IMG/VR virus record: IMGVR_UViG_3300037827_000551
Location: 19,519-83,518 of that record
Reading direction: 5' to 3' (one strand)
Length of the DNA: 64,000 nt
From: a virus
Position numbers and translations under genes: made by a program. The notes under the pieces were generated by a model. The model was not told where the DNA came from, did no database searches, and saw only the letters and a program-made list of their open reading frames with translations. Of this stretch, positions 54,569-57,914 are shown in pieces (position 1 is the first letter of the stretch; every line of letters starts with the position of its first letter).

Positions 54569-54760
54569 ATGCAAACAGCAAATCCCCCCAAAAGACGACA
54601 GAAGCGAGTCCTCTCCGTCAAGGCTACTCCTGAGTGGCACGACTGGCTCGATGGACTTGCAGGTCATGCTGGACGCGACAAGTCCACCACAATCGAGGAT
54701 GCCGTGCGAGAGCACGCAGTGAGACTTGGATATGACCGAAGACCCCCCCGGCGCGTCTGA
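54569..54760 (+). CDS. Ribbon-helix-helix regulator of the replication region
   Basis: A 63-residue protein with RHH-type order KRRQKRVLSVKATPEWHDWL and DKSTTIEDAVREHAVRLGY. The N-terminal basic region may add DNA contacts. The dyad in its promoter would be the target. It precedes the initiator genes, so it may control replication timing. Its 3' end overlaps the next gene. Confidence 0.7.
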   Translation: MQTANPPKRRQKRVLSVKATPEWHDWLDGLAGHAGRDKSTTIEDAVREHAVRLGYDRRPPRRV

Positions 54761-54914
54761 TGGGGTCAATTTAATGAAGTGGTTTCGGTTTTACAACGAG
54801 GTTTACCGCAACGACAAGGTGCAGTCCCTGCGCCCGGAACTCTTCCGGTTTTGGGTCAACCTGTGTCGTGATTGTCACGACCTATTCCACAAACATGGCA
54901 GACTTGCAAAATAG
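54732..54914 (+). CDS. Truncated initiator-like paralogue
   Basis: A 60-residue protein. Its KWFRFYNEVYRNDKVQSLRP-ELFRFWVNLC-like start resembles the first 30 residues of the initiator gene downstream (KLWSTTLDNEKIQSLNGDQV, KVWLNLLLV), but it ends after about 45 aligned residues. It may be a remnant after iteron duplication or a small regulator that interferes with the initiator. ATG at 54732 or 54774. Confidence 0.5.
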   Translation: MTEDPPGASDGVNLMKWFRFYNEVYRNDKVQSLRPELFRFWVNLCRDCHDLFHKHGRLAK

Positions 54915-54918
54915 TCAA

Positions 54919-54992
54919 GTCACGGCATTGTCACGGCACTGTCACGAAAATGTCACGTGACATGTCACGTGGAAAGTCACAAGGGTAGTCAC
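54919..54992. repeat. Iteron array 1: seven GTCAC sites
   Basis: GTCAC begins at 54919, 54930, 54941, 54952, 54964, 54976 and 54988, with spacings of 11, 11, 11, 12, 12 and 12 bp, close to one helical turn. Several extend to GTCACGTGAC-like palindromes. The array lies directly upstream of the initiator start. Confidence 0.9.
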
Positions 54993-55913
54993 GTGCATAA
55001 GCCTTGGCTCAAATTATGGTCGACAACGCTCGACAACGAGAAAATTCAATCGCTAAACGGCGACCAAGTCAAGGTGTGGCTCAACCTCTTGCTAGTGTCG
55101 TTGCGGTTCGATCGGGACGGCCTATTGCCACCACTTTCGACCATCGCGTTCCAGTCCAGGACGACCATCGAAGAGGCTCAAAATATGATCGACAAACTTG
55201 TTGACAAGGGCCTGATCGAAAAACGCCTAAGTGGTTACGTGGTACACGATTGGAAACACTGGCAAGGCGACGGAATGAGCGACGCGGAACGCCAGCGAAG
55301 GAAGCGGAAAAGGGACCGCCAGAACCCCGGAAAATGTCACGTGACAGGTAACGTAACGGGCAACGTAACTGGTAACGTAACTGGTAACGTAACAAGTCAC
55401 ACGCCTGTCACGCACATGTCACGTAATCGCGCGCCCGAAGATTCAGATTCAGAGAAAGAGAAAGAAAATACCCCCCATAAGCCCCCCAAGGGGCATGTTG
55501 TCGCGTTCGTTCTTCCGGACTGGATACCCCCGACGGACTGGGCTGACTACCTGGCCATGCGGCAACGAATCCGGAAGCCAGCCACCCCGCGAGCCAAGGA
55601 GCTCGCCGTGAAGACCCTGGAGCAACTCCGCTCCGAGGGCCACTCCCCGGCGGATGTCCTCCAGCAATCGATCCTGAAGTCCTACCAGGGGCTTTTCCCT
55701 GTCACGCCGAACGGCAACGGCTTCCACCGTCCGGATAGCAAGCCGGCGCAGCCACCGACTAACACGCTTCGACCGAGCCAGGCGGCTTGCGATGCCGCGA
55801 TAGCACCCGCGCTCGAACTGAGACGCCAACTCGACGAAAGGAAAGCTCATGCCGCCGAACAACGCAAACTCGCCGACACCGCCAATGGGGGCTCTCCAGC
55901 AAGCCAAAACTGA
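54993..55913 (+). CDS. Phage replication initiator (DnaD/replisome-organiser-like) with internal iterons
   Basis: A 306-residue protein. The N-terminal domain is a winged helix (HKPWLKLWSTTLDNEKIQSL, then LSTIAFQSRTTIEEAQNMID, KLVDKGLIEKRLSGYVVHDW), typical for phage initiators. A middle linker (about 115-155) encodes T-G-N-V repeats because it is built of 12-bp iterons (see 55336-55422). The C-terminal part (about 170-260), PPTDWADYLAMRQRIRKPAT and helices, may recruit the helicase or its loader. GTG at 54993 is chosen with AAGGG upstream; a GTG at 54957 is also possible. This resembles lambda O, which has its origin inside its own gene. Confidence 0.75.
   Translation: MHKPWLKLWSTTLDNEKIQSLNGDQVKVWLNLLLVSLRFDRDGLLPPLSTIAFQSRTTIEEAQNMIDKLVDKGLIEKRLSGYVVHDWKHWQGDGMSDAERQRRKRKRDRQNPGKCHVTGNVTGNVTGNVTGNVTSHTPVTHMSRNRAPEDSDSEKEKENTPHKPPKGHVVAFVLPDWIPPTDWADYLAMRQRIRKPATPRAKELAVKTLEQLRSEGHSPADVLQQSILKSYQGLFPVTPNGNGFHRPDSKPAQPPTNTLRPSQAACDAAIAPALELRRQLDERKAHAAEQRKLADTANGGSPASQN
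55336..55422. repeat. Iteron array 2: eight GTCAC/GTAAC sites inside the initiator gene
   Basis: Sites begin at 55336, 55348, 55360, 55372, 55384, 55396, 55407 and 55418, spaced 12, 12, 12, 12, 12, 11 and 11 bp. The unit is GTAACGTAACTG-like with GTCAC at both ends. It encodes repeated TGNV residues. It probably is the core of the replication origin. Confidence 0.9.
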
Positions 55914-56361: not shown

Positions 56362-56430
56362 ATGGTGGAGGTCGTTCCCCCGCCGGTGCAGGACCTGGTG
56401 GCCAAGTGGATGAGGAGAAAGGCGAAGTGA
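56362..56430 (+). CDS. Very short peptide (22 aa)
   Basis: The frame MVEVVPPPVQDLVAKWMRRK directly follows the upstream stop and ends in a GTGA overlap with the NADAR gene. It may only couple translation; a function is not evident. Confidence 0.4.
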   Translation: MVEVVPPPVQDLVAKWMRRKAK

Positions 56431-56951
56431 GTGATATCCAATTCTATCGGGCGAATGAAAAGCCGTACGGGTGTTTCTCTAATCTCCGTTGCGCCACATT
56501 CGTTTTTGATGGACTGGTTTTTCCAACCGCCGAGCATGCGTATCAATTCGGAAAGCCTCGGAAGCCAGAGGTGCGAGAATGGCTTATGGCGGCGCCCAGT
56601 CCTTCGTTGCTGGCAATGGCAGCCCATGGGCTTTACGCCTGGGATATCTCGCCCGGATGGTCGCAAGGTCGACGGGACAGGATGCGGCGCGTCGTCGAAT
56701 CCAAATTTCGACAGTGCCACGACTATGCCAATATCTTGTTGTCGACCAGCGACTCGCGAATTGTTGAGTGCGCGACGGTCGATAATGAAGTCAATCGGCG
56801 CTGGGGTGAAGTGAACGGAAAGGGCCAGAACTGGCTTGGCCTGATCTTGATGGAGGTTCGCGATTCGCTGCGCGCCGATCCACCCCCGCGAGACTTGGTG
56901 GTCAAGTTGTTCCCTGGACATTACCAGCTCACGGAGGGCGCAATCCCATGA
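56427..56951 (+). CDS. NADAR-domain protein (YbiA-like N-glycosidase)
   Basis: A 174-residue protein. It shows the NADAR order: IQFYRANEKPYGCFSNLRCA, then FPTAEHAYQFGKPRKPEVRE (the EHAYQ and Lys region), and the end WGEVNGKGQNWLGLILMEVR (about 134-153). NADAR enzymes remove riboflavin-pathway intermediates or ADP-ribose attached to nucleic acid bases, and in phages they may undo host ADP-ribosylation defences such as DarT. GTG start in GTGA overlap. The next gene is DUF4031-like, which co-occurs here. Confidence 0.8.
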   Translation: MSDIQFYRANEKPYGCFSNLRCATFVFDGLVFPTAEHAYQFGKPRKPEVREWLMAAPSPSLLAMAAHGLYAWDISPGWSQGRRDRMRRVVESKFRQCHDYANILLSTSDSRIVECATVDNEVNRRWGEVNGKGQNWLGLILMEVRDSLRADPPPRDLVVKLFPGHYQLTEGAIP

Positions 56952-57217: not shown

Positions 57218-57393
57218 GTAAGCACGTCGAGTGGTATCAGCCTGGCTACTGGCAACAACAGATCCGCCTGGCCCTTGCGGACATCAGCGTCAGATGCCCC
57301 TGGTGTGATGGCAACGGGTGCGACATGTGCGGCCAGTCCGGTCTTGTCTCGCCGCAGTTGGCCGCGAAACACAAGGAGGGCGCCATCCCATGA
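57214..57393 (+). CDS. Small zinc-finger protein (59 aa)
   Basis: The protein has CPWCDGNGCDMCG (about 28-40), a DnaJ-type zinc-finger half, after a Trp/Gln-rich start (MSKHVEWYQPGYWQQQIRLA). ATGA overlaps with the DUF4031-like gene and with the DHFR gene show it belongs to the operon. Its partner is unknown. Confidence 0.6.
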   Translation: MSKHVEWYQPGYWQQQIRLALADISVRCPWCDGNGCDMCGQSGLVSPQLAAKHKEGAIP

Positions 57394-57914
57394 CCATCAC
57401 GGCAATTGTCGCCATGGACTACAACGGTCTGATCGGCTCGGGCGGCAAGCTTCCATGGCACATCCCAGACGACTTGAGGCGGTTCAAGGATTACACGATC
57501 GGCAAACCGTGCCTGATGGGACGGAGGACGTGGGAATCGCTTGGCGGAAAGCCTTTGCTTGGGCGAAAGAATATCGTGATCAGTCGCACTCTTTCACCAG
57601 GGTTTCAAGATGCCGGCGGATTTCACCCATTCTCGGTGTACTGGTCTCCGGTAACCGCGATCATACACCTAGATGCTGTTGGAACACCCGAGCTTTGCAT
57701 CATCGGCGGTGGCGAGGTTTACCGGTCGACATCGGATTTATGGGACAAGGTGATCGCCACGTGGGTTCACGGGGATTACCAGGGCGACACGTGGTTTCCC
57801 CACGAAGAACTCTTGGCGGATGAATGGCAAATTGTGGGAGATTCGATCCGAGTCATAAAGACATCCGTAAGCTGCACGACTGTTACTTATGAGCGCAGGA
57901 GGCCCATCCCATGA
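57390..57914 (+). CDS. Dihydrofolate reductase
   Basis: A 174-residue enzyme that reduces dihydrofolate to tetrahydrofolate with NADPH for thymidylate synthesis. Motifs: IVAMDYNGLIGSGGKLPWHI (about 5-24), PDDLRRFKDYTIGKPCLMGR (the acidic active-site residue about 26-27), RTWESLGGKPLLGRKNIVIS and CIIGGGEVYRS (about 107-117). Size is normal for bacterial DHFR. It lies in the NADAR/DUF4031 group, so the operon may serve nucleotide metabolism. No thymidylate synthase is seen nearby. Confidence 0.88.
   Translation: MTITAIVAMDYNGLIGSGGKLPWHIPDDLRRFKDYTIGKPCLMGRRTWESLGGKPLLGRKNIVISRTLSPGFQDAGGFHPFSVYWSPVTAIIHLDAVGTPELCIIGGGEVYRSTSDLWDKVIATWVHGDYQGDTWFPHEELLADEWQIVGDSIRVIKTSVSCTTVTYERRRPIP

Follow-up and report, generated by a model that had tools for sequence, protein, structure and literature searches.

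Organization of the locus

The DNA analysed here, a 64-kb window corresponding to positions 19519-83518 of an 83.5-kb virus record, contains at 54993..55913 (+ strand) the gene for a predicted replication initiator of 306 amino acids. Terminase, capsid, RecE-like and RecT-like genes are present in the record, which indicates that it derives from a tailed phage. No close relative of this phage was found in the collections searched, nor did the whole initiator, used as a single-protein query against viral contigs, retrieve close relatives; the alignment of more distant initiators was too divergent to yield a pattern search. The GTG at 54993 is most probably the start codon of the initiator gene, because it is preceded by AAGGG and because the N-terminus aligns with those of homologues at this point. 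An AlphaFold model of the protein contains a winged-helix domain (aa 3-112, modelled with confidence), a disordered linker (aa 116-181) that covers the repeats described below, and a helical C-terminal domain.

The initiator matched PHROG 678, annotated as "replication initiation O-like" (6e-24), PHROG 3926, annotated as "replication initiation protein" (3.5e-13), and PHROG 186 (8.6e-7). A match to PF09681 (Phage_rep_org_N; 1.9e-4) was a near miss, at 21.9 bits against a cut-off of 23.3, and RepA_N (PF06970) was not among the Pfam matches at E<=1. Matches to O proteins were limited to the C-terminal part (query residues from about 139). Solved structures searched with the initiator sequence gave nothing significant; by Foldseek, the best whole-domain structural match was the DnaD N-terminal domain (2vn2, rank 2), a weak match with E=0.035 and a TM score of 0.55 by target length. 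By its sequence and predicted fold, the protein is a winged-helix, O/DnaD-like initiator.

Two arrays of short repeats are associated with this gene. Array 1 (54919..54992, + strand) consists of seven GTCAC sites starting at 54919, 54930, 54941, 54952, 54964, 54976 and 54988, with gaps of 11, 11, 11, 12, 12 and 12 bp and an inverted GTGAC at 54957. It lies outside the probable coding frame, between a truncated paralogue of the initiator and the initiator start codon, and extends over the ribosome-binding site: a Shine-Dalgarno-like AAGGG, read from the sequence at 54981..54985 (+ strand), is located 7 nt before the GTG and between the sixth and seventh GTCAC. No tandem tract follows array 1. 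Array 2 (55336..55422, + strand) lies within the codons of the initiator linker and is the proposed initiator-binding part of the locus. Its eight sites are GTCAC at 55336, GTAAC at 55348, GCAAC at 55360, GTAAC at 55372 and 55384, and GTCAC at 55396, 55407 and 55418, with gaps of 12, 12, 12, 12, 12, 11 and 11 bp; seven are exact and one (55360) is degenerate.

An earlier note on this DNA had reported seven GTCAC sites 11-12 bp apart upstream of the initiator, eight GTCAC or GTAAC sites inside it, and a mirror-like order of spacing. Both arrays are far beyond chance in shuffled sequence. The upstream positions and gaps and the mirror order (11 then 12 bp in array 1, 12 then 11 bp in array 2) are confirmed; the eight internal sites are phased as described, except that the third reads GCAAC. 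The note had not recorded a second, interleaved register within array 2 (55341..55393, + strand), which consists of GTGAC at 55341 and GTAAC at 55353, 55365, 55377 and 55389, each 5 bp after a site of the first register and again at 12-bp spacing.

Further upstream, a gene at about 54569-54757 (to 54760) encodes a small basic protein of 63 amino acids, ribbon-helix-helix-like by eye only and with no Pfam or PHROG match, which is a candidate alternative reader of both arrays. Downstream of the initiator are genes for a NADAR-domain protein (56424-56951; PF08719, 6e-23) and a dihydrofolate reductase (57387-57914; PF00186, 2e-40).

Selection on the DNA of array 2

The window contains three GTCAC triplets at 11-bp spacing, compared to 0 in 100 dinucleotide shuffles, and chains of three or more phased sites were absent from 200 base shuffles. 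Because array 2 is coding, we also recoded the linker with the codon usage of the phage. In 20,000 trials the recoded linkers contained a mean of 4.0 and a maximum of 10 GT[CA]AC sites, compared to 11 observed (p<5e-5). GTA is the rarest valine codon (8.5%), yet it encodes the valine of every one of the four TGNV units, whereas the third bases of the Thr and Gly codons, which fall in the spacer, vary. The last three units of array 2, spaced at 11 bp, break the reading frame. That recoding never reaches 11 sites and that all four repeats use GTA shows selection on the DNA of array 2 as well as on its peptide. The earlier note held that the iterons force a TGNV peptide repeat. The repeat is real and goes with the 12-bp spacing, but the recoding demonstrates that the protein alone leaves the DNA unexplained.

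A tandem tract follows array 2

Shortly 3' of array 2, and absent from the earlier note, are five hexamers at 55439..55468 (+ strand; AGATTC AGATTC AGAGAA AGAGAA AGAAAA), or (AGANNN)5 with AGA in register, which we propose as an unwinding element. The 35 nt at 55436-55470 that contain the tract are 69% AT, the highest in the region.

The linkers of related initiators often have a 5- or 6-nt tandem repeat in the same place. Such a tract was found in 10 of 14 relatives chosen by protein similarity alone (phages L503 and L514-L516; genomes L517-L522 and L524-L527), by a criterion that at most 2.6% of random windows matched (p about 1e-13). Runs of at least three AGA-hexamers or -pentamers occurred in 34 of 96 array loci and in 0.2% of control windows. 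A search of viral contigs for (CAGATA)4 returned at least 120 stretches. Among the matches listed, 114 lie in a same-strand ORF of at least 150 amino acids, at a median position of residue 131; 69 of 120 belong to the family defined by the initiator HMM, and the matches of 91 non-redundant ORFs are mostly to initiator or primosomal families. The control (CAAGTA)4 gave 23 stretches, none of them in an initiator (0/23). It is possible that (CAGATA)4 is a universal marker of intragenic phage origins. Among the matches listed, the (CAGATA)4 loci (L529-L648) are mostly initiator linkers, all in the DTDT frame, with iterons that vary (GTAAC/GTTAC, CGAACG, AACGTTG, GTCAC).

The tracts mostly keep one reading frame across phages (DTDT/SEKE), and an additional peptide role is therefore possible. 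Tracts of other sequence in the same place (CCCGA, CCTAG) encode other peptides. That 10- and 11-bp arrays go with different tract periods (5 or 6) was rejected as only suggestive (Fisher p=0.054).

Phased arrays in other phage initiators

A scan for four GTCAC words at fixed spacing across 2.9 million viral contigs yielded 105 stretches at 11 bp, at least 120 at 10 bp, at least 119 at 12 bp and, for the reversed word at 11 bp, 39. According to an HMM of the N-terminal domain, 79 of 120 arrays at 10 bp (among the matches listed) and 46 of 105 at 11 bp lie inside initiator-family ORFs; the HMM counts were 5 of 119 at 12 bp (among the matches listed), 2 of 39 for the reversed-word control and 4 of 117 for 11-bp arrays in bacterial genomes (among the matches listed), all of these being counts that are not fully independent because the HMM was seeded from array-bearing ORFs. 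The PHROG tallies are independent and agree, with replication initiation, replisome organizer and DnaD-like families dominating the genes that carry 10- and 11-bp arrays. These differences identify helical phasing in phage initiators as the signal; an array at 12 bp does not by itself mark an initiator.

Several patterns were discarded. Four GTCAC at 12 bp fail as an initiator marker, the matches listed being mostly non-initiators, several of them structural, and the 11-bp pattern in bacterial genomes is not the same element, consisting among the matches listed mostly of unrelated repeats. The strand bias of the 10- and 11-bp arrays (94:0 and 67:0 among the matches listed) is trivial as a sign of functional polarity, since the reverse unit GTGAC contains TGA and so produces a stop when all frames are cycled.

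Two further observations came from the scan. The 12-bp arrays of L108, L110, L117, L121, L163 and similar loci encode long TGNV repeats in non-initiators, several apparently structural; these appear to be an independent low-complexity repeat. Contig IMGVR_UViG_3300001914_000007 carries one GTCAC array within an initiator ORF and, tens of kb from it, a double array in non-coding DNA close to an integrase-like ORF (L095/L105), a pair reminiscent of SPP1 oriL/oriR.

Iteron core and initiator domain

The earlier note had named iterons that are absent or unphased in close relatives as grounds against its reading; the collections hold no close relative, but more distant relatives with this type of initiator do carry phased iterons in the same linker. 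Within the 14 relatives chosen by protein similarity alone, the core is GTNAC in L503, L517, L519, L520 and L526, GTTTC in L518 and, by inspection, GATATCA at 11 bp in L515/L516, so that the core varies while the linker layout stays; in L524 and L527 inspection revealed no clear iterons or tract. In L526, a bacterial genome, a short, early-ending winged-helix ORF is followed, outside its frame, by GTCACGTTACCG three times at 12 bp and then by a 5-nt AAGCC/GAGCC tract, apparently a non-coding version of the layout. L516 (PQ492659.1, Limnohabitans phage DC33) has a genome of 39 kb and a replication region like those of Caudoviricetes; its filing under Inoviridae is probably wrong.

GTNAC sites are present in the N-terminal-domain homologues of EcoS640R1, P7869 and Bradyrhizobium phage ppBjS10J-1. 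The C-terminal-only homologues of mEpX1 and Gifsy-2 and K-12 YdaU, whose N-terminus differs from that of the window initiator, are without a GTNAC array. That GTNAC follows N-terminal rather than C-terminal-only homology points to the N-terminal winged helix of the initiator as the probable reader of the arrays. Some N-terminal homologues use other cores, and the GTNAC rule is thus valid for the branch of the window initiator and not for the whole family.

The occurrence of two arrays, which the earlier note considered unusual, proved to recur: among the matches listed, 56 pairs were found in 225 loci. Many come from one Rac-like group, in which the first array is inside the winged-helix codons; the first array of L036 and L067, like that of the window, is found at the start codon of the initiator. 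In the window and in all of the double-array loci examined (12 of 12), a tract follows the linker array alone. L036, L067 and the Rac-like group did not show the mirror order of spacings, which is therefore probably incidental.

Array 1 and a proposed partial duplication of the initiator

The ORF that ends just before array 1 (54774..54914, + strand; 46 amino acids) corresponds to the N-terminal half of the initiator winged-helix domain. It matched the window initiator by BLASTP (2e-6) and the family HMM (4.5e-10), each as a single comparison; by phmmer against the ORF database it matched the initiators of L518 (7e-4) and L036 (2e-3), and its match to PHROG 3926 had E=0.011. Array 1 begins 145 nt past the ATG of this ORF, while in EcoS640R1 and P7869 the array inside the winged-helix codons begins 128 nt past the start codon. 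In addition, a 25-bp segment is common to both arrays (54946 and 55330; 92% identical). Neither the truncated paralogue nor the common segment appears in the earlier note. Taken together, the 46-aa fragment, the similar offsets and the common segment suggest that a partial duplication of the initiator with truncation would be the simplest account of both the ORF and array 1.

If so, array 1 might be only a relic of that duplication, a truncated copy left with its array and without present function. This we consider rather unlikely: the initiator fragment, its offset and the common segment are all as such a relic would have them, but array 1 has kept every one of its seven GTCAC cores intact and in phase, an argument for continued selection, and L036 and L067 also have arrays at the start codon with no such fragment noticed there. 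From its position over the ribosome-binding site, array 1 is probably an operator, with an autoregulatory role, or looping DNA.

A predicted replication origin

The gene family, the phasing of the iterons, the constraint on their DNA, the relatives and the adjacent AT-rich tract lead us to predict, with considerable though not full confidence, that the locus is the theta-type replication origin of the phage, embedded in the initiator gene and working much as outlined below. The earlier note had called the two arrays probably the replication origin; these lines of evidence support an intragenic origin well, but the core given in the note was too short, since it should extend through the tract to 55468, and of the two arrays, judged by the tract, array 2 alone resembles an origin. 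As only the linker array has a tract, we assign the putative origin to array 2 plus the tract (55336-55468) and a regulatory or looping role to array 1. GC skew had no inflection at 55 kb and was uninformative as an origin indicator.

We suggest that GTNAC(G) cores are bound by the N-terminal winged helix, one for each helical turn (10-12 bp), and that initiator protomers would thereby stack along one face of array 2. This nucleoprotein would open the adjacent AT-rich purine hexamer tract (55439-55468), the presumed unwinding element, which may also serve as a register of single-stranded sites. The O/DnaD-like C-terminal domain would then bring in a helicase. Searches of the record, possibly an incomplete one, gave neither a DnaB-type helicase homologue nor a DnaC/P-type loader (no match to the query PF01695); the helicase and loader used are thus probably those of the host. 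Least certain is the part played by array 1: initiator bound there might cover the ribosome-binding and start region and so repress its own synthesis, might loop to array 2, about 340 bp away, or might do both.

The arrays could instead be operators for the replication operon, bound by the initiator or by another regulator such as the 63-aa protein, with the origin elsewhere. Array 1 does cover the ribosome-binding site, and a small gene for a possible DNA-binding protein (54569-54757) lies just upstream, but we think this explanation improbable, given that array 2 is well inside the gene and accompanied by an AT-rich tract, a position it shares with the arrays of relatives and with known intragenic origins, and that across phages the use of GTNAC follows the N-terminal domain of the initiator itself. 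Least probable is that the linker repeats are protein low complexity (TGNV, SEKEKE) grown by slippage, with the DNA motif as a by-product, as the 12-bp TGNV-encoding arrays of tail and other non-replication genes and the constant frame of the tract might suggest, since 10- and 11-bp arrays change frame with every unit, array 1 is outside the reading frame, synonymously recoded linkers always have fewer sites than the real one, and the CCCGA and CCTAG tracts encode other peptides in the same place.

The layout of a phased array followed by a tract occurs in well over a hundred other phage sequences, those of unrelated phages among them. Beyond the intragenic origin predicted for this phage, we propose tentatively, as an idea that we regard as somewhat short of an even chance, that these loci form a large, undescribed class of phage origins with a two-part code in the initiator linker: phased iterons with a GTNAC or other core, spaced 10-12 bp apart so that each helical turn carries one, and after them a tandem tract of period 5-6 nt (AGANNN, CAGATA, CCCGA, CCTAG) read as single-stranded DNA by the initiator or a helicase loader. 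If true, phages would have their own version of the DnaA boxes and DnaA-trios, with a regulatory loop closed by any extra array that lies at the start codon or close to it. For most phages the replication origin has yet to be mapped; the signature of phased iterons, then a 5-6-nt tract, in the linker of a winged-helix initiator would allow origin prediction in uncharacterised phages and prophages, and it links iteron type to the DNA-binding domain of the initiator. It also raises a testable question, namely whether the tract is a single-strand recognition register like the DnaA-trios.

Comparison with known origins

In lambdoid phages, iterons lie in the middle of the initiator gene, where they encode a linker, and are followed by an AT-rich tract (PMC7466680). 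The lambda O origin and the window share this arrangement, and the C-terminal part of the window initiator matches O-like proteins. However, the lambda iterons are longer and unlike GTNAC (sequences in PMC7466680) and form a single cluster, and lambda encodes a loader of its own, P. The window has a pair of arrays and a hexamer tract; neither lambda-type iterons, nor an O N-terminal domain, nor an adjacent P/DnaC-type loader (PF01695, searched in the record) was identified. Lambdoid relatives that share only the C-terminal domain have no GTNAC array.

In SPP1, oriL lies in gene 38 and comprises an AT-rich unwinding element and direct repeats to which the product of that gene, the initiator, binds; there is a second site elsewhere (PMC6316719). 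The window likewise has repeats within an initiator gene (that of the replisome organizer gp38 in SPP1), an AT-rich neighbour and a second site, but the second site is about 13 kb away in SPP1 and about 340 bp away in the window, and SPP1 encodes a loader, gp39, and a helicase, gp40, neither type of which was found in the possibly incomplete record of the window. In RepA_N plasmids such as pSK41, Rep boxes central in rep are bound by an N-terminal winged helix, and the central linker encoded by the origin is dispensable as protein (PMC5703833). These are plasmids, whereas the window is from a phage with an initiator that lacks a RepA_N domain match, and we have not seen a hexamer tract described for pSK41. 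Bacterial oriC combines double-stranded initiator boxes with short-period repeats read as single strand (PMC10201434). Only this two-part logic of DnaA boxes and DnaA-trios, or the DnaD recognition element, is comparable; the phage tracts have a period of 5-6 nt and a different sequence, and we claim no match to TnnT.

Thus the locus has the features of an intragenic iteron origin, with phased direct repeats in the initiator gene between the DNA-binding and C-terminal domains and an AT-rich region beside them, and it resembles the lambda O, SPP1 oriL and RepA_N origins but, as judged from its sequence, lacks defining features of each. In literature mostly outside subscription journals, we found neither GTCAC/GTCACG iterons nor short tandem tracts in phage origins, nor the combination of phased GTNAC, a 5-6-nt tract and a start-codon array. 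Intragenic iteron origins are known, and a helically phased GTNAC class with a hexamer tract was not found described, which is weak evidence of novelty.

The closest full-length homologues found are in Rac-like (YdaU/DicC-module) enterobacterial and Pseudomonas prophages, L364, L275, EcoS640R1 and P7869. We found no published origin mapping for these four, and the position of the Rac origin oriJ was found neither in the K-12 annotation nor in the literature covered that names oriJ. Their initiators have an overall identity to the window initiator of only about 27%, their spacing is 10-11 bp, and their first array is within the winged-helix codons rather than upstream of the gene. As in the window, GTCAC sites form two phased arrays in these prophages, of which the second occupies the linker and has a tract of period 6 after it. 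The window fits a group of winged-helix initiators with a phased GTNAC array in the linker and, after it, a 5-6-nt tandem tract.
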